Shown piece after piece: positions 1,600 to 10,754 of a DNA stretch of 11,269 bases. A program made the translations under genes and the position numbers. Source of the DNA: Candidatus Coatesbacteria bacterium RBG_13_66_14 (GTDB taxonomy: Bacteria > RBG-13-66-14); NCBI GenBank assembly GCA_001774505.1, contig MFAF01000095.1, positions 7,261-18,529 of the forward strand, read 5' to 3'. The notes beneath the pieces were generated by a model, which was given only the letters and a program-made list of their open reading frames with translations, made no database searches and was not told where the DNA came from. The first letter of the stretch is position 1, and each line of letters starts with the position of its first letter.

Positions 1600-3060
1600 T
1601 CACTGCCGCAATGTTTCCAGAACCGTCCCGTCCTGCGAGCGGATGACGACCTCCAGCGGCGTATGGCCCGGCAGGGAGTGGGTGGCGCATGCCAGGCAGG
1701 GGTCGTAAGCGCGGAAGGCCATCTCCACCTGGTTCAGCAGGCCGTCGTCCACCTTTCCGCCCTTTATCAGCCCCCGGGCCGCCCGCTCGATGGACATGCA
1801 CATGGCGGCGGAGTTGTTCACCGTGGCCACGATGAGGTTGGCCTTCTTGATGATTCCCCGCTCGTCGGTCTCGTAGTGGTGGAGAAGGGTGCCCCGTGGG
1901 GCCTCCACCACGCCCACCCCGGAGGTGGGGATCTCGGTGGGCAGGGTGCGGACGTTGGGGTCGAGGATCTCCTCGTCGGCGGCCAGCTCCGAGAGACGCT
2001 CGGCGGCGTACAACAGCTCGATCAGCCGCGCCCAGTGGTAGGCCAGGGTGTTGTGGGCCGGCTTCCCGCCGAGGGCCTCGTAGAGCTTCTCATACTCGGC
2101 CTGGGCCAGGGGGGTGGCCATGCCGTCGGCGGCGTTCAGGCGCGCCAGCGGGGCGACCCGGTACACCCCCGAGCCAGAACCGTCCACAAAGCCCTTCCAT
2201 CCAACGTTCTTCAGGTACGGGAACTTGATGTAGCTCCAGGGCTCCACGTGCTCGGCGATGTGGTCCAGGTATTCTCGGGGTTTAAATTTTACAAACTCGG
2301 CGCCCGTGGGGTCCACGACGCGGATATCGCCGTCGTAGAAGTTCACCCGGTTGTTCGCGTCCACCAGTCCCATGTAGTAGGTTTCGTGGCGGTACAGGTC
2401 GCCGATGATGACGTCCACGTAGTCCTTATTGGCCAGAACGATGTCGGCGAAGGCTCCGAGGGTGAACTGGGCGAACTCGACGGCGTCCTTGGCGGTCTGG
2501 ATGTACTCCTCCCGATTTTCCTTGGATACACCCTTGGAGACGCCGCCCGGCAGGTTGCACACCGGGTGGATGACCCTCCCGCCCTGTTTGGCGATGATGT
2601 CGCGCAGGCGCTTTCGTATGCCGATGACGGTCTTGCCGGCTTCGAGCCCGACTTTTTCAAGGACGCCGAGGATGTTGCGCAGGCCCTTGGGCGCCGTGGG
2701 GCCGACGATGAAATCGGGGCCCCCGAGGAAGAAGAAGTGCAGGGCGTGGTCTTCGGCCATGAAGGCCGAGTTCACCATCTCCCGGATCTTCCTGGCCGCC
2801 GGCGGAGGCTTGACCTTGTAGAGGTCGTCCAACGCCTTGCCCGAGGCCATGTGGTGAGCCGTGGGGCAGACGCCGCAGATTTTCGGCGTTATCCGCGGCA
2901 TCTCCTCGGCCGGGCGCCCCTCGGAGAACTTCTCGAATCCCCGGAGCTCGGGAACCTGCAGGAAGGCCCGGTCCACATCGCCCCGGTCGTCGAGGAAGAT
3001 TTCAATCCTGCCGTGACCCTCGAGGCGGGTGATCGGATCAATGGTTATCTTGCGAGCCAT
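1600..3060 (-). CDS. mvhA: [NiFe] hydrogenase large subunit, MvhA-like (group 3c)
   Basis: Catalytic subunit that splits or forms H2 at a Ni-Fe centre; 486 residues, full length for the family, predicted cytosolic. Both nickel-binding cysteine pairs are present. The N-terminal motif KICGVCPTAHH holds Cys62, Cys65 and His69. The C-terminal motif DPCLACATH holds Cys455 and Cys458. A further 25 residues follow His461, so cleavage after that His by a maturation endopeptidase is predicted from family knowledge. The opening MARKITIDPITRLEGHGRIE is typical of large subunits. Assignment to the methyl-viologen-reducing (Mvh, group 3c) type rests on overall sequence and on the MvhD and MvhG partners next to it. 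The ATG at 3060 is preceded by AAAGG seven bases away. It is the last gene of the cluster, 26 bases after mvhG. The F420-reducing FrhA family is the nearest alternative, but FrhB and FrhG are absent here. Confidence 0.95.
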   Translation of the reverse strand: MARKITIDPITRLEGHGRIEIFLDDRGDVDRAFLQVPELRGFEKFSEGRPAEEMPRITPKICGVCPTAHHMASGKALDDLYKVKPPPAARKIREMVNSAFMAEDHALHFFFLGGPDFIVGPTAPKGLRNILGVLEKVGLEAGKTVIGIRKRLRDIIAKQGGRVIHPVCNLPGGVSKGVSKENREEYIQTAKDAVEFAQFTLGAFADIVLANKDYVDVIIGDLYRHETYYMGLVDANNRVNFYDGDIRVVDPTGAEFVKFKPREYLDHIAEHVEPWSYIKFPYLKNVGWKGFVDGSGSGVYRVAPLARLNAADGMATPLAQAEYEKLYEALGGKPAHNTLAYHWARLIELLYAAERLSELAADEEILDPNVRTLPTEIPTSGVGVVEAPRGTLLHHYETDERGIIKKANLIVATVNNSAAMCMSIERAARGLIKGGKVDDGLLNQVEMAFRAYDPCLACATHSLPGHTPLEVVIRSQDGTVLETLRQ

Positions 3061-3078
3061 GACGCGGCCTTTCTATGG

Positions 3079-3098
3079 CAAGGGGTTTAAGCCCCTTG
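3079..3098. repeat. Palindrome centred on TTTAAG, overlapping the mvhG stop codon
   Basis: Arms CAAGGGG and CCCCTTG flank TTTAAG. On the minus strand this repeat encodes the last residues of MvhG (Gln-Gly-Ala) and its TAA stop, then runs into the 26-base gap before mvhA. A hairpin at this spot could slow 3' exonucleases or tune the ratio of small to large subunit. That role is inferred. Confidence 0.6.
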
Positions 3099-4076
3099 TC
3101 TCAGGTTCTTCCGCTTCAGGAGCGAGGCGGGCAGGCTGTAGAAGTAGAAGAGCCCCGCCGGGTCGTCAATCTGCCCGATGAGACGCCCGACCTCCTCGTC
3201 GGTCATCTTCTCCTCGCCCTCCAGCCCCGCGATGGAGGCCAGGAAGGAGAGGATCTTCGCCCCCTGGTCGCGCACGCCCTTTGTGGGGCCGAAGCACCCG
3301 CGGCAGGGCATGTTGGCATTGATGCAGCGCTCGCCGCAGCCGGAGCGGGTGGCCGGCCCGTGGCAGATGAGCCCCTGGGCCAGGTAGCACTTCTCGGGGT
3401 CCGCCAGAATCTGGTGCGGCCGCTTGAACTCCGCCAGGGAAACCTTCTCCGGCTTGGAGTCGTTCAGGGGGCAGGTGTCGCAGAGCGACTTGTCCGGGGC
3501 AAGGACGGCGCCCTTCTCGGGCAGCTTCCCCTCCAGGATGGCGGTGACCGCCCCGAGGATCAGGTCGGGCGGCGGGGCGCATCCCGGCAGGTAGTAGTCC
3601 ACGTCTATAACCTGGTCCAGGGTCCGGACCGTGTCGTGGAACTCGGGCAGGGTTAGCTCCTTGCCGTCCACGGTGGTCTGAGTCTGCGGGAGGACGCCCC
3701 CGGGGTTGGCGTTGGAGGGGGCTTCTTTGTAGACCCGCTCGAAGATGGATTTCCGGTCGTGGAAGTTGGCCAGGCCGGGTATGCCGCCCAGATGGGCGCA
3801 TGAGCCGAAGGCCACGACCAGACCCGATTTCCTCCGCAGGAGTTTTACCATCTCCTCCTGCTCCGAGGTGCGCACGGCGCCATTGATGAAGCTGACCGCG
3901 ACCGAGCCGTCTTCGTGGGCCTCCACGTCGGATTTCTTGAAATCCAGCGCCACGGGCCAGAATACGATGTCCACCGCGCCGACCACCGCCAGGATGTCCT
4001 CGGCCAGGTCCACCACCGCCTCCTCGCACCCGCCGCAGGAGGCGCACCAGTAAAAGGCCACTTTCGGCTTTGCCAT
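3087..4076 (-). CDS. mvhG: [NiFe] hydrogenase small subunit, MvhG-like
   Basis: Iron-sulfur subunit that carries electrons between the Ni-Fe site of MvhA and MvhD; 329 residues. The N-terminal motif WCASCGGCEE gives Cys14 and Cys17 of the proximal cluster, completed by Cys93 (GSCAH) and Cys166 (LPGC). Eight further cysteines, at 199, 202, 230, 238, 247, 251, 258 and 261, supply the ligands for two more [4Fe-4S] clusters. Cys11 is extra. No twin-arginine signal peptide or C-terminal anchor is seen, so the enzyme is soluble and cytosolic, as expected for Mvh. The ATG at 4076 follows a good AAGGAG site. The gene sits between mvhD and mvhA, and its last codons lie inside a repeated palindrome. 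The hydrogenase small-subunit call is firm; the Mvh subtype follows from its neighbours. Confidence 0.94.
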   Translation of the reverse strand: MAKPKVAFYWCASCGGCEEAVVDLAEDILAVVGAVDIVFWPVALDFKKSDVEAHEDGSVAVSFINGAVRTSEQEEMVKLLRRKSGLVVAFGSCAHLGGIPGLANFHDRKSIFERVYKEAPSNANPGGVLPQTQTTVDGKELTLPEFHDTVRTLDQVIDVDYYLPGCAPPPDLILGAVTAILEGKLPEKGAVLAPDKSLCDTCPLNDSKPEKVSLAEFKRPHQILADPEKCYLAQGLICHGPATRSGCGERCINANMPCRGCFGPTKGVRDQGAKILSFLASIAGLEGEEKMTDEEVGRLIGQIDDPAGLFYFYSLPASLLKRKNLRQGA

Positions 4077-4100
4077 CGTCTATCTCCTTTGGCAAGGAGA

Positions 4101-4151
4101 CAAGGGGTTTCGCCGGGGGCGTAGCTCGCCACGCTCGGTTAAACCCCTTGC
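4101..4151. repeat. Ten-base inverted repeat split by a 30-base unit
   Basis: Perfect arms CAAGGGGTTT (4101-4110) and AAACCCCTTG (4142-4151) enclose a copy of the 30-base unit also found twice at 1450-1509. If the inner unit is removed, the arms join into a palindrome of the same kind as at 3079-3098. This looks like an insertion of one repeat into another. It fills most of the 77-base gap between mvhD and mvhG and could form a hairpin in the operon transcript. Confidence 0.6.
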
Positions 4152-4153
4152 CC

Positions 4154-4585
4154 TCACAAGGGCCCCAGTTGGGCCACCCTCGCGGTGAAGTCGCCCACCA
4201 GCTTCGCCAGCTTCGCCGACTCGCCCGTGGAAACCCATTCCAGGGCCAGCCGTTCGGGCTCAACGCCCAAAGGCCCTAGCGTTTTTTTGAGGAGCAGAAT
4301 CCGCCGGCGGGTCTTGTAGTTGCCGTTGTGCTCGCACTCGTCGGGCGGGCAACCGGCCACGAAGACGCCCCAGGCGCCCCGGGAGAAGGCTTCCAGAATC
4401 AGCTCGGGGTCCAGCCGACCGGTGCACATAGTGATGATGATGGGTTCACGGTCGCCTTCATCTCCCTCCCCGAGCCGGGAGAGCTGAAAGCCCGGGTAGG
4501 TGGACCAGTTGCAGCAGAAGACCAGGACCTTTGGTCGTAAACTTTTTTCTTCGGCCGCAGGTTTACCCTCGGTAGTAACGCCCAC
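4154..4585 (-). CDS. mvhD: MvhD-like hydrogenase iron-sulfur subunit
   Basis: Small [2Fe-2S] adapter that links hydrogenase MvhGA to its electron partner (HdrA in methanogens); about 143 residues. The family signature is clear: FCCNWSTYPG, MCTGRLDPELILEAF, AGCPPDECEHNGNYK and the tail LALEWVSTGES. Cysteines are at 24, 25, 54, 79 and 84. The usual first motif, as I recall it, is CNWC; here its second Cys is Ser28, while an extra Cys24 stands just before. The start chosen is GTG at 4585, because GGAGGTG lies six bases ahead and this start sits one base after the stop of the upstream iron-sulfur gene. A longer frame from 4630 would overlap that gene and has no family-like sequence. The tight junction implies translational coupling. 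The subunit call is firm; the exact cluster ligands are uncertain. Confidence 0.9.
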   Translation of the reverse strand: MGVTTEGKPAAEEKSLRPKVLVFCCNWSTYPGFQLSRLGEGDEGDREPIIITMCTGRLDPELILEAFSRGAWGVFVAGCPPDECEHNGNYKTRRRILLLKKTLGPLGVEPERLALEWVSTGESAKLAKLVGDFTARVAQLGPL

Positions 4586-4586
4586 C

Positions 4587-5138
4587 CTACACCTCCTCCA
4601 GGAACGCCCGGACCGTCTCACGGAGCTCACCCCGGGTGACGCCGAACCCCTCGACCATGATTATCGCGTTCGAGGGGCAGGTGGCCGCGCAGACGCCGCA
4701 GCCCTCGCACTTGACGATATCTATCTTCTTCCCGTCCTCGCCGAAGCTGATCGCCTCGTTCTTGCACACCGCCTGGCAGACCCGGCACCGGCTGCACAGG
4801 TCGTCGTCGGTGCGGGCGGCGAGCCCCCGGAAATCAATACCCGCGTCGAGGAAATCGGCCTTGGCGTCGGTGAAGATCTTGGTCAGAGAGACCTTTGACG
4901 AGCAGCTCCGCTCGCAGTTCTTGCAGTAGAAGCACTGGACGACCTTCTCAACCATGCCGGGGTCCGGCTGCAAGGCTCCGGTCAGGAGACCGTAGATCAG
5001 AAGCAGCTTGCCCCGGGGGGTGTCGGTCTCATAGGCGTGGGACTTGTAGAGGTGGCAGAGCTCGTAGCAGTACCCGCAGCGGATGCAAAGGTTCAGCTCG
5101 TGCATCCAGCTTTTCAGTCTCTCGTAAGGGGCGGCCAT
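4587..5138 (-). CDS. Four-cluster [4Fe-4S] electron-transfer protein (HdrC/GlcF-like plus HdrA-like ferredoxin domain)
   Basis: Predicted electron wire of 183 residues. All 16 cysteines fall into four CxxCxxCxxxC sets: 18/21/24/28, 69/72/75/79, 115/118/121/125 and 144/147/150/154. The first half (residues 15-95, with CIRCGYCYELC, TPRGK and CFYCKNCERSC) resembles the two-cluster domain of HdrC, GlcF and LutA. The second half (residues 110-180, ending CPSNAI then GFGVTRGEL) resembles the C-terminal ferredoxin domain of HdrA. The CCG cysteine domains of GlcF, HdrD and HdrB are absent. The ATG at 5138 is chosen over an in-frame start at 5201 because AGGAGG lies just before it and the family-like sequence begins there. 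It follows the flavin dehydrogenase by 106 bases and mvhD by one base, so it probably joins the flavin enzyme to the hydrogenase. The domain reading is seen; the partner assignment is inferred. Confidence 0.85.
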   Translation of the reverse strand: MAAPYERLKSWMHELNLCIRCGYCYELCHLYKSHAYETDTPRGKLLLIYGLLTGALQPDPGMVEKVVQCFYCKNCERSCSSKVSLTKIFTDAKADFLDAGIDFRGLAARTDDDLCSRCRVCQAVCKNEAISFGEDGKKIDIVKCEGCGVCAATCPSNAIIMVEGFGVTRGELRETVRAFLEEV

Positions 5139-5221
5139 GAAACCTCCTATTCCGCACGGTGGTACCGCATCCGGTTCCGCTACGGTTGCCGGTTGACACA
5201 ACGTCTTACAGAGTCGCCCGC

Positions 5222-5244
5222 GGGCGGGGACTTAAGCCCCGCCC
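5222..5244. repeat. GC-rich palindrome centred on CTTAAG, abutting the dehydrogenase stop codon
   Basis: Arms GGGCGGGG (5222-5229) and CCCCGCCC (5237-5244) flank ACTTAAG. The TAG stop of the flavin dehydrogenase is at 5247-5245, directly beside the arm. The similarity to 1496-1540 (inverted) continues into that gene's last codons. There is no U-tract after the hairpin on the minus strand, so it is more likely an mRNA-stabilising or REP-like element than a terminator. Confidence 0.65.
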
Positions 5245-6690
5245 CTACGGCTCGCGAACCGAGCCCACGGGGTAGCGGAGCTCGGTCGCCGTGACCCAGT
5301 CGTCGGGCGCGTCGAAGAGCTTGTGGGGGTTGAGGATGTTGTTGGGGTCGAAAGCCCGCTTGACCGCGCGCTGGAGCTCCAGCGAGTCGGCCTTTTCCTT
5401 CTTGAAGGCGGGCGCCTTGGAGAGCCCGATGCCGTGCTCGGCCGAGGTGGTGCCGCCCACGGAATGGACGTAGTCGTAGATTTCGGCCACGGCCCGCCGG
5501 GCGTCCTCCCACTGGGCCTTCTTCGTGACGTCCATGAGGATCTTGGTGTGCATGCAGCCCGAGCCGCAGTGACCATAGGCGGACATGATGATGTTGTTCC
5601 GGGCTGCCACTTCGTGGATCTTGCCCGCCAGGTCGGCCATCCTCGAGTACGGCACCGCCATGTCGTCGGCCAGGGAGGTGCAGGCATAGCCTTCCTTGTA
5701 GCGCGAAAGTGACGAGAAGAGCTTCTTCCTCCCGGCGAAGATGCGGGTGCGCTCCTTGGCGTCGTAGCTGGTCTCGATGTTGAAGCCGCCGTGCTTTTCG
5801 CAGGCGGCTTGGATGGCGTCAATCTCCGCCTGGACGGCGTCCTTCACCCGGCCCTCGGCCTCGAAGAGGATTATGGCCTCCACGTCGGGCAGGCCCAGGT
5901 TCTGGGTTTCGTTGACCGCGGTGATGGCGACGTTGTCCATCAGCTCGATCATGGAGGCCGAGCAGCCGCTGGCTATGATCTCGCTGACGGCGTGTCCGGC
6001 GTCCGCGAGCTTGTTGTAGCAGGCGATGCCCAGGCAGCGGATCTTGGGGATGGGGACGATCTTCATCGTGGCCTCGACGATGACGCCCAGCGTGCCCTCG
6101 GAGCCCACCATCAGGCGCTCGAGCTGGTAACCCGAGGCTTCCACGTTGGTGTTGGCGCCCAGTTTGACCAGCTCGCCCGAGGCCAGCACGACCTTCATCC
6201 CGAGGACGGAGTCGCGGGTGGCCCCGTACTTGACGGAGCGGGTACCGCTCGCGTTGTTGGCGATTTCGCCGCCGATGGTGGCGATGCAGCTTGAGGCCGG
6301 CGCCGGCGGGTACATGAAGCCGTACGGTTTCAGGGCCTTGTTCAGGTCGTCGTCCACCACGCCGGGCTGCACACGGCAGAGAATGTCCTGGGGCCGGATC
6401 TCCAGGATGCGGTTCATCCGCTTCATGTCGAGGACGATCCCGCCGTCAATGGGGACGGCGTGTCCCGACATGCCGCTCCCGGCGCCACGGGGGATCACCG
6501 GTATCTTCTTCGCGTTGGCGTACCGGAGTATCGCCTGGACCTCCTCGGTCTTCCCCGGCACCAGGACGAGGTCGGGTCGGGCAGCGTGGACGGAGGCGTC
6601 GGCTCCGTAGATGTACAGATCGGCGGGGCTCGAGCGCGCGTTCTCCTCGCCGACTATCTCTCTGAGCTTCTCGATGTCCCTGGCGTTCAT
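5245..6690 (-). CDS. FAD-binding 2-hydroxyacid dehydrogenase, GlcD / D-lactate dehydrogenase family
   Basis: Flavoenzyme expected to oxidise a 2-hydroxyacid (lactate, glycolate, malate or similar) to the 2-oxoacid, or to run in reverse; 481 residues, normal for the family. The N-terminal FAD-binding domain (about 1-215) shows RGAGSGMSGHAVP (68-80), IGGEIANNASGTRSVKYGA (139-157) and GSEGTLGVIVEAT (196-208). The C-terminal FAD-oxidase domain shows GHCGSGCMH with His374 and His381, SAEHGIG with His419, and FDPNNILNPHKL (447-458). The usual HxGDGNxH motif is altered to HCGSGCMH. The ATG at 6690 follows AAGGAG by five bases. It is the first gene of the cluster that continues with the four-cluster iron-sulfur protein and MvhDGA, which implies that its electrons go to or come from H2 rather than quinone. 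Family and fold are firm; the substrate and the direction are unknown. Confidence 0.92.
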   Translation of the reverse strand: MNARDIEKLREIVGEENARSSPADLYIYGADASVHAARPDLVLVPGKTEEVQAILRYANAKKIPVIPRGAGSGMSGHAVPIDGGIVLDMKRMNRILEIRPQDILCRVQPGVVDDDLNKALKPYGFMYPPAPASSCIATIGGEIANNASGTRSVKYGATRDSVLGMKVVLASGELVKLGANTNVEASGYQLERLMVGSEGTLGVIVEATMKIVPIPKIRCLGIACYNKLADAGHAVSEIIASGCSASMIELMDNVAITAVNETQNLGLPDVEAIILFEAEGRVKDAVQAEIDAIQAACEKHGGFNIETSYDAKERTRIFAGRKKLFSSLSRYKEGYACTSLADDMAVPYSRMADLAGKIHEVAARNNIIMSAYGHCGSGCMHTKILMDVTKKAQWEDARRAVAEIYDYVHSVGGTTSAEHGIGLSKAPAFKKEKADSLELQRAVKRAFDPNNILNPHKLFDAPDDWVTATELRYPVGSVREP

Positions 6691-6921: not shown

Positions 6922-9162
6922 TCAGATCTCGGCCACGGCGATGGCCGCCATGTTCACCACGTCGTCCACCTCGCAGCCGTGGGGGAGGATGTGGGCCGAT
7001 TTTCTCAGGCCCATCAGAATCGGCCCGATGGCCTCGGCGCCCGAAAGCTTCGAGCACAGCTTGTATGCGATGTTGGCCGATTGCAGGTCGGGGAAAACCA
7101 AGATGTTTGCCCCGCCCCGCAGGTTGGCAAAGGGGTAGGTGCTCTCGATGAGCTCCGGCAGCACCGCCGTGTCCGCCTGCATCTCCCCGTCCACCATCAG
7201 GTCGGGGACGGCCCGCTTGATTATCTCCACGGCCCGCTTCACCTTCTGCGTCTTTTCGTGGTTCACGCTGCCGAAGTTGGAGAAGGAGAGCATCGCGATC
7301 CGAGGCTTGTAGCCGAGCTTCTTCACGTACTTCGCGGTGAGCTGGGCGATGCCCGCCAACTCCATGGCGCTGGGATCTATGTTCACGGTCGTGTCGGCGA
7401 AGAAGTAAACCCTCTCCTTGAAGATGAGCATGAACATGCTGGCCACGGTGCCGAACACGTCGTCGGTGCCGATGACGCGGATAGCCGAGCGGAACGCCTC
7501 GGGGTAGTAGGTCGTAATTCCCGTCAGGACGCTGTCGGCGTCACCCATCCGGACCATCATCGGCCCGTACACGCGCCCCAGGCGCATCAATTCGCGGCAG
7601 TGGGCCAGGGTCCGCCCCTTGCGCTGCCGGAGGCCGAAGTACTCCTCGGCGTATTCCTCCAGCCGGGGGGAATCGGACGGGTTGATGATTTCCACTTCCT
7701 CCAGGTCCAGGCCCAGTTCCCGGATGCGCCCCTCGATGACGGCGGGTCGGCCGAGGAGGGTGGGCCTGGCTATCCCCTCATCCACGATGATGGCGCTGGC
7801 GCGCAGGATGCGGTCGTCCTCGCCCTCGGGGAATACCAGGCGGGCGGGACGCTTCCGGGCCTTGTTGATCACGAGGCGCATGATTTCACGGCTCTTCCCC
7901 AGACGCGCCTCCAGCATTTCCCTGTAGGAGTCCAAGTCCAGCTTGACCCTGGCGACGCCGGATTCCATCGCCGCCCGGGCCACGGCGGAGGCCTCGTGGA
8001 TCAGCACGCGGAAATCGAAGGGCTTGGGGATGAGGTACTCGCGGCCGAAGCTGAGGCGCTCGACGTCGTAGGCCTTGCAGACCGAATCGGGTACGTCCTC
8101 CTTGGCCAGGTCGGCCAGCGCCTTGGTGGCGGCGTGCTTCATGGTCTCGTTGATGTCGGTGGCGCGGACGTCCAGGGCGCCGCGGAAGATGAACGGGAAC
8201 CCGAGGACGTTGTTCACCTGGTTCGGGTAGTCGGAACGACCGGTGGCCATGATGGCATCACTACGGGCCTCCATCGCGTCCGGGTAGGAAATTTCGGGAT
8301 CGGGATTGGCCATGGCGAAGATGATCGGATCGGAGGCCATCGTCCGGACCATATCCTGGGTCACCAGCCCGCCCACGGAGAGGCCCAGGAAAACGTCTGC
8401 CCCCTTCATGGCCTCGGCGAGGGTGCGCCGGTCGGTTTCCACGGCGAACTGCTCTTTATACGGGTTCATCCCCTCCTTGCGGCCCTTGAAGATGACGCCC
8501 TTCGAGTCCACCAACAGGATATTCGCCGGGTTCAACCCGAGGCTGACGTAGTACTTGGTGCAGGCGATGGCGGAGGCCCCGGCGCCCGAAACCACGAGCC
8601 GGACCTGGCCGATGTCCTTCCCGTTGAGCTCCAGGGCGTTTAAGAGGGCCGCCCCGGAGATGATGGCCGTCCCGTGCTGGTCGTCGTGAAAGACCGGGAT
8701 GCTCATCCGCTTCTTCAACTCCTCCTCGATGACGAAGCAGTCGGGGGCGGCGATGTCCTCCAGGTTGATCCCCCCGAAGGTCGGCTCGAGCATCTCCACG
8801 GCGCGGATTATCTCTTCGGGGTTCTTGGAGGCTATCTCCAGATCGAAAACGTCAATGTCGGCGAAGCGCTTGAAGAGGACGCCTTTGCCCTCCATCACCG
8901 GCTTGCCGGCTGCGGGGCCGATGTCGCCCAGCCCGAGCACCGCCGTGCCGTTCGAGATGACGGCCACCAGGTTGCCCTTGGCCGTGTAGTCGTAGACCTT
9001 CGACGGTTCCTCCTCGATCTCCAGACAGGGTATCGCCACCCCGGGGGTGTAAGCCAGGGACAGGTCGCGCTGGGTCCGGCAGCGCTTTGTGGAAACGACC
9101 TCTATCTTGCCGGCCCTGCCCCGGCTGTGGTACTCGAGAGCCTCCTCGCGGCTGATGGCCAT
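6922..9162 (-). CDS. maeB: NADP-type malic enzyme fused to a phosphotransacetylase domain (MaeB)
   Basis: Cytosolic enzyme for oxidative decarboxylation of malate to pyruvate and CO2; 746 residues, the usual length of the bacterial MaeB fusion. The malic enzyme part (about 1-410) shows [11 protein letters not shown] (Tyr38), [13 protein letters not shown] (Lys93 region) and NLEDI with FHDDQHGTA for the metal. It also shows the nucleotide-binding GAGASA (193-198) and VDSKG. The second part (about 430-746) is the phosphotransacetylase-like domain ([55 protein letters not shown]). In this fusion type that domain is generally regulatory, binding acetyl-CoA, rather than a working Pta. The ATG at 9162 is chosen because GGAGG lies five bases ahead; a TTG frame extends to 9177. 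A strong terminator follows. NADP preference is inferred from the family only. No convincing promoter is seen in the 274 bases upstream. Confidence 0.95.
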
Positions 9163-9436
9163 CGGTTCCTCCAACAATAAGGCACAGGGTGCGCCCTGCG
9201 CCGGTTACTCTTCCGCCGTCCCCCGAAATCGAGAAACGAAAAAAACACACCTTCCCGAACGGCTAGCCGACCGGCTCGCCGTCGGTCCGGGTGTCAAGGG
9301 TGACGAGGTGAAATTACCACACCCACGAGACCGGGTTCCCATTTTTCGCCCAGCTCGATGTAAACGCTCGGGTGCAAGGCCGACCGGGTACGAACCGTCA
9401 TAACCAGCAAACCGGCGAATCCCGCCCTCCCACCCC

Positions 9437-10684
9437 TCAGGAGGGGATCAGGGGCACGGTGATGCTCCCATCCACGAGGAAGAGCGCCTTCGCATCGGGC
9501 CCCCGGGCGGATAGGGCCTCATCCACCGCCGCCTGGACCGTGGCGAAGGGGCGCATGAGGCAATTGCGGACCACGTCGTCGGGGAGCTCGGTGACCGCCC
9601 ACATCTGTGCCCAGAGGCCGATCTCCGCCATCTTGGCCGCTTTATGATACCCCAGGACATAGCCCCGCTCGATGTGGGCCAGCACCTGGCTCGGGGTGGA
9701 GCAGGAGGAGAGAAGCTCGTAGAACGTCTCGTGGCCGATGCCGGTGCGGCATTTGGACACCAGGATTAAAATCCCGCCCTCGGCCAGGGCCAGCTTGCCG
9801 TTGTCCAGGGCCTTCTGGGACTGGTAGAGGTCCACGTCCATGGGATAGGGGGCGACGCTTACCACCACGTCGGCCTTGGCGGGGATCTTCACGCAGAAAA
9901 CCTCGTTGGCCCGTTCGATGGCGGCGTAGAAGGACTCGTGGATGTGACCGGCGGTGGCGGCGTAGATTTTCCGGTCGCGGTCCAGGACCGTCTGGATCGA
10001 GAAAATGGGTTTCTCGGCGATGACCTTCAGGGCGTCAATCATGTCCTCGTGGACCGGGTTGCCCTCGAGGGCCAGCGCCTGGGCCCGGATATCCATGGCA
10101 AATTTATGGTTCTGCTCGATCGTTGAGTATGAAGCGATGCCGGGCAGGAAAGCCTTGCGGCCGCCAGTGTACCCGCCGAAATAGTGGGGCTCGACGGAGC
10201 CGATGATGACCAGCCGGTCCGCCTCCACCCCCAGGCGGTTGACCCACATCTCGGTCCCCGACGTCGAGGTGCCGATGTGGACCATCTCGGCGTCGGCCCT
10301 GGAGTCGTGGACGTGGATCCGGTCGCGGAAACGCTCCAGGTGGCGGCCGAAGATGAAGCGGAGCTCCTCCTCGGTGGGGCCGCGGTGGACGCCGGTGGCG
10401 ATGATGAAGGAGGGCTCCACGCCGGCCAGGTCACCCTCGATGATGTCCAGGACCTTGGCGGTGGGGGTGGGCCGCGTGCCGTCATTGACGATGAAGAGAA
10501 TCTCCCCTCCGGCGCCGATGAATTCACCGAAGGGAACGGTGCCGATGGGATTCGCCAGGGCGCGGCGCAGCGTTTCGAACTCATCGCCCGAATCCACCCG
10601 GTTCGGATGCACGACGCCGGCCAGCCGGTCGGGTTTCAGCTCGACCGCCTGCTCCCCTTTTCCCCACCCAACCCGAATCTCCAC
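9437..10684 (-). CDS. larA: LarA-family nickel-dependent 2-hydroxyacid racemase
   Basis: Racemase or epimerase that uses the nickel-pincer nucleotide cofactor; 415 residues from the chosen start. The known Lactobacillus plantarum LarA residues are matched with near-constant spacing: DGTRPTP with Arg71 (Arg75), GVHRG with His100 (His108), EPHYFGG with His167 (His174), GGRKAFLPG with Lys177 (Lys184, the cofactor-linking lysine), QNH with His193 (His200, nickel ligand), and YQSQK with Gln288 and Lys291 (Gln295, Lys298). The full catalytic set therefore seems intact. The start is taken at GTG 10684, with GAGG just before it, giving an N-terminus like other LarA proteins. The longer GTG at 10729 falls inside a candidate -10 box. 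The cofactor genes larB, larC and larE are not in the window. LarA relatives act on lactate, malate and other 2-hydroxyacids, so the substrate is open; the malic enzyme next door makes malate worth testing. Confidence 0.9.
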   Translation of the reverse strand: MEIRVGWGKGEQAVELKPDRLAGVVHPNRVDSGDEFETLRRALANPIGTVPFGEFIGAGGEILFIVNDGTRPTPTAKVLDIIEGDLAGVEPSFIIATGVHRGPTEEELRFIFGRHLERFRDRIHVHDSRADAEMVHIGTSTSGTEMWVNRLGVEADRLVIIGSVEPHYFGGYTGGRKAFLPGIASYSTIEQNHKFAMDIRAQALALEGNPVHEDMIDALKVIAEKPIFSIQTVLDRDRKIYAATAGHIHESFYAAIERANEVFCVKIPAKADVVVSVAPYPMDVDLYQSQKALDNGKLALAEGGILILVSKCRTGIGHETFYELLSSCSTPSQVLAHIERGYVLGYHKAAKMAEIGLWAQMWAVTELPDDVVRNCLMRPFATVQAAVDEALSARGPDAKALFLVDGSITVPLIPS

Positions 10685-10725
10685 TACGGCCTCGGTGAAA
10701 AAAATAACGAAGTCAAACCGGGGGG

Positions 10726-10754
10726 ACACTACGATAGCGCAACCGGTTTGTCAA
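10726..10754 (-). promoter_or_regulatory. Candidate promoter of the larA-like gene
   Basis: On the minus strand, a perfect TTGACA (10754-10749) stands 17 bases from TAGTGT (10731-10726), which matches -10 consensus at only three of six positions. Transcription would start near 10719, about 35 bases before the GTG at 10684. Inverted arms AAACCGC (10758-10764) and GCGGTTT (10777-10783) lie just upstream and could be a regulator site or a weak hairpin after the preceding gene. Confidence 0.5.

Follow-up and report, generated by a model that had tools for sequence, protein, structure and literature searches.

Gene content of the locus

We analyzed a stretch of 11,269 nucleotides from Candidatus Coatesbacteria bacterium RBG_13_66_14 (contig MFAF01000095.1, positions 7,261 to 18,529; here called the window), in which the subunits of an Mvh-type [NiFe] hydrogenase lie beside a GlcD-family flavoenzyme. 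As the original prediction had proposed, five genes share one direction, all five open reading frames (ORFs) being open on the minus strand between 6690 and 1600. They encode a GlcD-family FAD dehydrogenase of 481 aa (5245..6690), an iron-sulfur protein with four [4Fe-4S] motifs that we call the adaptor (4587..5138), a divergent MvhD of the FlpD family, named MvhD' here (4154..4585, with a probable GTG start at 4585 and a frame open to 4630), and the small and large hydrogenase subunits MvhG (3087..4076) and MvhA (1600..3060). The minus-strand gene order is LarA-like, malic enzyme fusion, GlcD, adaptor, MvhD', MvhG, MvhA and histidine kinase. Domain comparisons and gene neighborhoods suggest a soluble 2-oxoacid reductase linked to H2 as the product of the cluster, most likely an NAD-free malate dehydrogenase, a reading to which we give an even chance.

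GlcD contains the Pfam domains FAD_binding_4 and FAD-oxidase_C, and its best PDB matches are a glycolate oxidase (9qgz_A) and LctD (7qh2_C). The adaptor is matched by Fer4_8 and Fer4_7, MvhD' by FlpD, MvhG by Oxidored_q6 (nearest PDB chain, 5odc_E) and MvhA by NiFeSe_Hases. Both cysteine pairs of MvhA, C62/C65 and C455/C458, are kept; its best PDB match is the NiFe hydrogenase large subunit 7t2r_D (406 bits), with the Mvh chains 9sw2_F and 5odc_F next at 396 bits each. The scan of nine window proteins revealed neither HdrB nor the flavin domain of HdrA, in agreement with the predicted absence of HdrA and HdrB from the cluster; EtfA and EtfB were likewise not found among these nine. GlcE was not seen in the window, and no CCG-domain gene of the HdrD/GlcF type stands beside GlcD there. 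Because the order from LarA and malic enzyme through GlcD to MvhA and the histidine kinase is syntenic in a congener (G001; G, L and C numbers are our handles for genomes, loci and contigs), and GlcD-adaptor-MvhD' recurs in other phyla, misassembly or chance grouping is unlikely, and we rejected it.

The iron-sulfur adaptor and MvhD'

The adaptor has 16 cysteines, as the original prediction had noted, in four CxxCxxCxxxC motifs that are invariant in 13 aligned adaptors. Its N-half matches the GlcF model and is 46-59% identical to the N-halves of CCG proteins in G001 and G149, while the adaptor itself carries no CCG domain. In sequence models, residues 100-162 align on positions 564-626 of HdrA2, and MvhD' aligns on HdrA2 640-773. 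These alignments identify the iron-sulfur protein as a predicted chimera, whose N-half is a dicluster domain of the GlcF type and whose C-half resembles the ferredoxin at the C-terminus of HdrA; this would enable it to stand in for HdrA. The claim that HdrA is missing therefore needs one correction, since an HdrA C-terminal ferredoxin-like piece is present inside the adaptor. The predicted joining of a GlcD-type enzyme to MvhDGA is supported, through a dedicated iron-sulfur protein, but it is the adaptor, as a mimic of the HdrA tail, and not the flavin dehydrogenase itself, that would replace HdrA. As the adaptor is without the flavin part of HdrA, the window version should be non-bifurcating.

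HdrA was singled out by sequence models and not by the fold of the adaptor: in the structure model of the window protein, the C-half is about equally similar to HdrA and to many dicluster ferredoxins. For the N-half, no PDB sequence match was better than E 0.0017, and few rows of the structure search span it; despite these scarce matches, we did not read it as a new fold. An AlphaFold2 model of a natural adaptor-MvhD' fusion (L018) was set aside as too poor, with a predicted local distance difference test score of 57.2.

The 14 MvhD' proteins of our tree, all adaptor-linked, have CxxS in place of CxxC (CNWS for CNWC in the window) and an altered GCHPGDCHY stretch, whereas CxxC is kept in 22 of 23 ordinary MvhDs, the other one (L027) having a stop codon there. 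The MvhD' proteins form one clade (14 of 37 rows, support 100/100), apart from the ordinary MvhDs of the same genomes; the label MvhD' was set by the motifs themselves, and the tree excluded L026, repeats of one place and rows of less than 100 residues. Adaptor and MvhD' are encoded in one frame in 12 genomes (in L026 up to a run of N) and by separate genes in three. We rejected the reading of the L026 MvhD' as a broken gene, the break being the run of N. The L027 sequence (L027:10769-11158) is a Desulfotomaculum MvhD with an in-frame stop at the second cysteine of CNWC (FLCNW*), possibly selenocysteine; selenocysteine-containing MvhDs have been reported (excerpts of PMC2702500).

Distribution and conserved gene order

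Merged searches recovered the adaptor in at least 15 genomes. This is a lower bound, scoring having covered up to 17 first-look candidates per genome among 193 relatives or up to 8 in the larger taxon sets, and the named-locus search having used six exact peptide patterns. Hits were obtained in at least three of the 193 relatives (the window genome G000, G001 and G149), in one of four genomes of the phylum of G149, in at least 10 of 389 Thermoplasmatota (the phylum of G198; eight of them full adaptors), in at least three of 393 Dehalococcoidia (the class of G196), and at 10 named loci in the peptide-pattern search. G226 and G415, which match only via the N-half of a CCG protein, and L027, with a match of 24 residues, were dropped from the set. 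The carriers span about four phyla, namely Thermoplasmatota, Chloroflexota, that of the window and that of G149, the last two being counted from kinship and small size.

MvhD' adjoins or is fused to the adaptor in all 15 genomes (interrupted by a run of N in L026), and GlcD lies directly upstream of the adaptor in 13 of them; in G001 one CCG gene stands between the two, and in G149 about 26 kb separate GlcD from the adaptor. Conserved adjacency, expected from the original prediction, was thus found for GlcD-adaptor-MvhD', but MvhG and MvhA directly follow MvhD' only in the window and G001. Elsewhere, MvhG/MvhA lie upstream of GlcD in G198, G200, G202, G203 and G205, within a large cluster containing HdrABC and FAD/NAD-domain genes that we take to be Flx-type. 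They are nearby in G149, whereas in G196 they occupy a different contig, together with HdrA and an ordinary MvhD; in L017 the end of MvhA is visible at the contig edge. Pairwise distances of GlcD, adaptor and MvhD' are correlated (r 0.90-0.95, 0 of 5000 permutations) across 13 of the 15 genomes, L024 and L026 being excluded for runs of N. These parallel distances would fit one co-inherited unit, and host relatedness alone could produce them.

The restriction of MvhD'-MvhG-MvhA adjacency to two genomes of one genus is what one would expect if hydrogenase and GlcD module were mere neighbors, co-regulated without being electrically joined, with MvhD' serving another acceptor. We consider this very unlikely: adaptor and MvhD' together copy the pair of HdrA tail and MvhD, and no second MvhD lies in the cluster.

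The CCG-domain (GlcF/HdrD-like) gene of G001 is next to GlcD, between it and the adaptor, and in G149 such a gene is one gene away from GlcD. Directly before the G001 adaptor we observed a remnant resembling a GlcD C-terminus (L028:11449-11616, VTAIRLGYPVG*), which scores 43 compared with a maximum of 36 in 2000 single-base shuffles. Given this remnant and the direct adjacency of GlcD in 13 of 15 genomes, the CCG gene of G001 appears to be an insertion, and its loss from the window as a derived state is less likely.

Relation to Hdr complexes

As a general description, an Hdr-free system does not hold. HdrB and HdrC share the adaptor contig at eight of the 13 loci outside the genus (G149, G196, G698, G198, G200, G202, G203 and G205), and several of the remaining five loci are truncated at the edge of their contig. 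The window genome itself encodes HdrC, HdrB, HdrA, an ordinary MvhD, MvhG and MvhA on contig C111. Upstream of the HdrA-MvhDGA set of this contig are two large ORFs of 589 aa (30 Cys) and 936 aa (19 Cys) (L032:8551-13300), taken by eye as NuoG/NuoF-like.

The unit could be mainly the acceptor arm of a bifurcating HdrABC complex, borrowed in the window genome from C111, which would convert H2, ferredoxin and oxaloacetate to reduced ferredoxin and malate. The contigs shared with HdrB and HdrC in G149, G196, G698 and five archaeal genomes, the C111 set and the CCG protein in the G001 cluster all point in this direction. However, the C111 set carries its own MvhADG, with an MvhA 65% identical to the window copy, so that this hdrABC is not the clear partner of the window MvhADG; moreover, the window showed no hdr gene, and the adaptor lacks a flavin domain. 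For the window we therefore regard this alternative as unlikely.

Substrate of the flavoenzyme

The original prediction of an H2:2-oxoacid/2-hydroxyacid oxidoreductase is supported as to the coupling, and the neighboring genes point to oxaloacetate/malate as its substrate instead of lactate or glyoxylate. Upstream of GlcD in the window, a malic enzyme fused to a phosphotransacetylase-type domain (6922..9177, minus strand; order kept in G001) is preceded by a LarA-family nickel racemase (9437..10729, minus strand), whose best NCBIfam model is the malate racemase LarAH6.

Gene context was read from a tblastn panel at loci of unequal length, from contigs of 5.9 kb to about 80 kb. On the adaptor contig, within about 35 kb, LarA is present in 10 of the 15 genomes. 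In 12 of the 15 this region has a C4-acid enzyme, which may be malic enzyme, phosphoenolpyruvate carboxykinase (PEPCK), pyruvate carboxylase B, fumarase or fumarate reductase; LarA was not seen on the contigs of L026 and G202. L022 and G698 present a run of carboxyltransferase, pyruvate carboxylase B, GlcD, adaptor-MvhD', LarA, FumA, HdrC, HdrB, the iron-sulfur protein FrdX, FrdA and FumB, in which the fumarate-reductase-type flavoprotein has TfrA as its best model, below the cut-off of that model. This run covers the route from pyruvate to succinate except for malate dehydrogenase. Shorter versions are carboxylase-GlcD-adaptor-MvhD'-LarA up to the contig end in G785 and pyruvate carboxylase B-GlcD-adaptor in L026, while G149 has LarA-GlcD-PEPCK-CCG-HdrC-HdrB and a fumarate-reductase pair elsewhere on the contig. 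Within about 35 kb of the archaeal adaptors are LarA (G198, G200, G203, G205), fumarase (G198, G200), PEPCK (G203) and a fumarate-reductase pair (G200, G202, G203, G205).

Enzymes of the GlcD family act on D-isomers, which would explain the presence of a racemase. Substrate-side residues of the malate racemase Mar2 are Tyr172, Lys173, Gln293 and Lys351 (excerpts of PMC7583248); compared with these, Tyr, Gln and Lys351 are kept in all six aligned LarA rows. GlcD probably has a 2-oxoacid/2-hydroxyacid site, for which oxaloacetate/D-malate is our best guess.

The same electron path could serve another substrate, with GlcD acting on D-lactate/pyruvate (or D-2-hydroxyglutarate or glycolate) and LarA being of the lactate type. 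The best PDB relatives of GlcD, glycolate oxidase and LctD, are compatible with this, a GlcD is named a lactate dehydrogenase in excerpts of PMC9723716, and LarA has, as in lactate racemase, a loop phenylalanine at one position and scores higher with lactate racemase than with Mar2. On the other hand, the nine window proteins scanned did not include a lactate permease, C4 enzymes are neighbors in three other groups, LarA agrees with Mar2 at the Gln and Lys specificity positions, and its best-scoring NCBIfam model is LarAH6 and not LarA. We judge a lactate-type substrate to be rather unlikely.

Of the 15 adaptor genomes, 14 gave no match to classical malate dehydrogenase (PF02866), G698 and G785 being counted as negative from their absence among the matches listed, and malate:quinone oxidoreductase was not searched for; the control of the PF02866 search was positive in 13 of 14 genomes. 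In the phylum of G198, PF02866 occurs in 209 of 389 genomes and in none of eight carriers (hypergeometric P 0.0019), and in the class of G196 in 294 of 393 and in none of three carriers (P 0.016); these P values overstate the significance, since carriers within a phylum are related. PF02615 was found in none of 17 genomes, 13 of them carriers (G698 and G785 are outside this set); its absence says less, the control being positive in only four of 14.

Several observations weigh against an enzyme that uses malate and stands in for malate dehydrogenase. G197 has both the adaptor and PF02866, as the sole carrier of the 15, and adding it to the Chloroflexota class raises P to about 0.05. The congeners G002 and G003, without an adaptor hit, are also without PF02866, so that the missing malate dehydrogenase is not tied to the adaptor in the genus of the window; the window genome (2.06 Mb, 152 contigs) is moreover only 75.6% complete, which weakens the absence there. 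Neither LarA nor a C4 enzyme was seen on the short contigs of L017 and L020 or in about 80 kb of G204, which contains runs of N. The LarA scores with LarAH6, the best-scoring model for these proteins (368.5 bits in the window, 396.4 in G149 and 393.5 in L022), are all under the curated cut-off of 500, the top PDB match of LarA is the lactate racemase 2yjg (203 compared with 194 bits for Mar2), and phenylalanine replaces the Mar2 residue Lys173 in all six rows (Mar2 numbering from excerpts of PMC7583248). In Dehalococcoidia, the module is not adjacent to MvhGA, and MvhD' need not bind a hydrogenase. Finally, in a 13-row alignment, the metal motif of GlcD is changed to HCGSGCMH, with both histidines kept and Asp and Asn replaced. 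The usual motif of the family is of the HxGDGNxH type.

Two further observations concern GlcD. Residue 135 of the window protein (ASSC-IATIGGE) is cysteine, where the other 12 of the 13 aligned rows have arginine. A frame of 1111 aa on contig C77 of the window genome (L035), with GlcD- and GlcF-like parts and about 32% identity to the window GlcD, is probably a separate 2-hydroxyacid dehydrogenase.

Directly after the GlcD stop (window 5222-5244) lies a GC-rich palindrome, GGGCGGGG-CTTAAGT-CCCCGCCC. Its 15-base core recurs with one mismatch at 1516-1530, just past MvhA, so that the copies bracket the adaptor-MvhA genes (two matches in the window compared with 0.04 expected), and is present exactly at L032:10435-10449 on C111, near the second hydrogenase set. 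The palindrome looks like a small repeat element of the window genome.

Proposed mechanism

With its ligands kept, MvhA would split H2, and electrons would flow, as in homologous systems, from MvhG via MvhD', the HdrA-like ferredoxin half and the GlcF-like half of the adaptor to the FAD of GlcD. GlcD would reduce oxaloacetate to D-malate, which, judging from the neighboring genes, LarA would convert to L-malate; this may then meet malic enzyme in the window and fumarase/fumarate reductase in relatives. The H2 potential is -414 mV, compared with about -170 mV for oxaloacetate/malate and about -190 mV for pyruvate/lactate. These standard potentials favor H2-driven reduction of a 2-oxoacid, the predicted direction, and make the reverse unfavorable without a bifurcating partner. 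In relatives, Hdr complexes instead of H2 may feed GlcD, and in Thermoplasmatota, Chloroflexota and G149, where GlcD-adaptor-MvhD' lies among hdr genes, oxaloacetate may serve a bifurcating complex as its high-potential acceptor.

The full path from H2 to oxaloacetate appears the most likely in our analysis, with a probability of about one half, and we are more confident of the wiring than of the substrate. Slightly short of an even chance, we would place the broader proposal that in about four phyla, uncultured archaea and bacteria possess an NAD-free malate dehydrogenase that is connected via the HdrA-tail adaptor either with a [NiFe] hydrogenase or with Hdr hubs, works with a nickel-pincer racemase and stands in for the classical enzyme in the reductive C4 branch.

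If this is true, a central carbon gap would be filled in anaerobes that have fumarase, fumarate reductase and carboxylases without a recognized malate dehydrogenase, and a central malate step would run on electrons of hydrogen instead of NADH. The MvhD-HdrA junction would work like a plug, which a small chimeric adaptor allows to be fitted to a new flavoenzyme. Oxaloacetate could also replace CoM-S-S-CoB as bifurcation acceptor. The proposal predicts H2:oxaloacetate activity with D-malate as intermediate, and the annotation of 'glcD' genes beside hdr/mvh clusters would change.

Comparison with known systems

The cluster shares MvhA, MvhG, an MvhD-family subunit and an HdrA-type ferredoxin domain with MvhADG-HdrABC (5odc, 9sw2), but is without the HdrA flavin domain, HdrB and HdrC, has a GlcD flavoenzyme as putative acceptor, and contains an MvhD' with CNWS for CNWC in a clade of its own. 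In the MetVF-MvhD-HdrABC and FdhAB-HdrABC systems, MvhD acts as a socket for varied redox modules and HdrABC is retained (excerpts of PMC6085437), whereas in the window the Hdr-side partner changes. The glycolate oxidase GlcDEF (9qgz) is similar in its GlcD family member and in the GlcF model matched by the adaptor N-half, and differs from the window, where no GlcE was seen, the adaptor has no CCG domain and a hydrogenase is linked. LctD-EtfAB, the bifurcating lactate dehydrogenase (7qh2), likewise has a GlcD-family flavoprotein in an anaerobic multi-subunit complex, but no Etf was found among the nine window proteins scanned. The LarA of the window is nearest to Mar2/LarAH6 (6d6z) among NCBIfam models and resembles it in three substrate-side residues (Tyr, Gln and Lys), differing in its score below the model cut-off and in Phe for Lys173 (residues from excerpts of PMC7583248).

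HdrD/GlcD pairs of Archaeoglobi, Bathyarchaeia, Methanomethylicia and Korarchaeia, which are tied to Fpo or to coenzyme M/coenzyme B disulfide chemistry, also place GlcD beside an HdrD/GlcF-like iron-sulfur protein, and the CCG gene of G001 is of that type; the excerpts of the two reports name neither an HdrA-tail adaptor nor a link between hydrogenase and GlcD (PMC6474303, PMC10667645). A system of identical composition was not among the matches listed in the open-access literature (titles and abstract openings, with subscription papers mostly outside). On its predicted gene products, the cluster misses a defining feature of Mvh-Hdr, of LctD-EtfAB and of the HdrD/GlcD pairs, and combines parts of Mvh-Hdr, GlcDEF and HdrD/GlcD.

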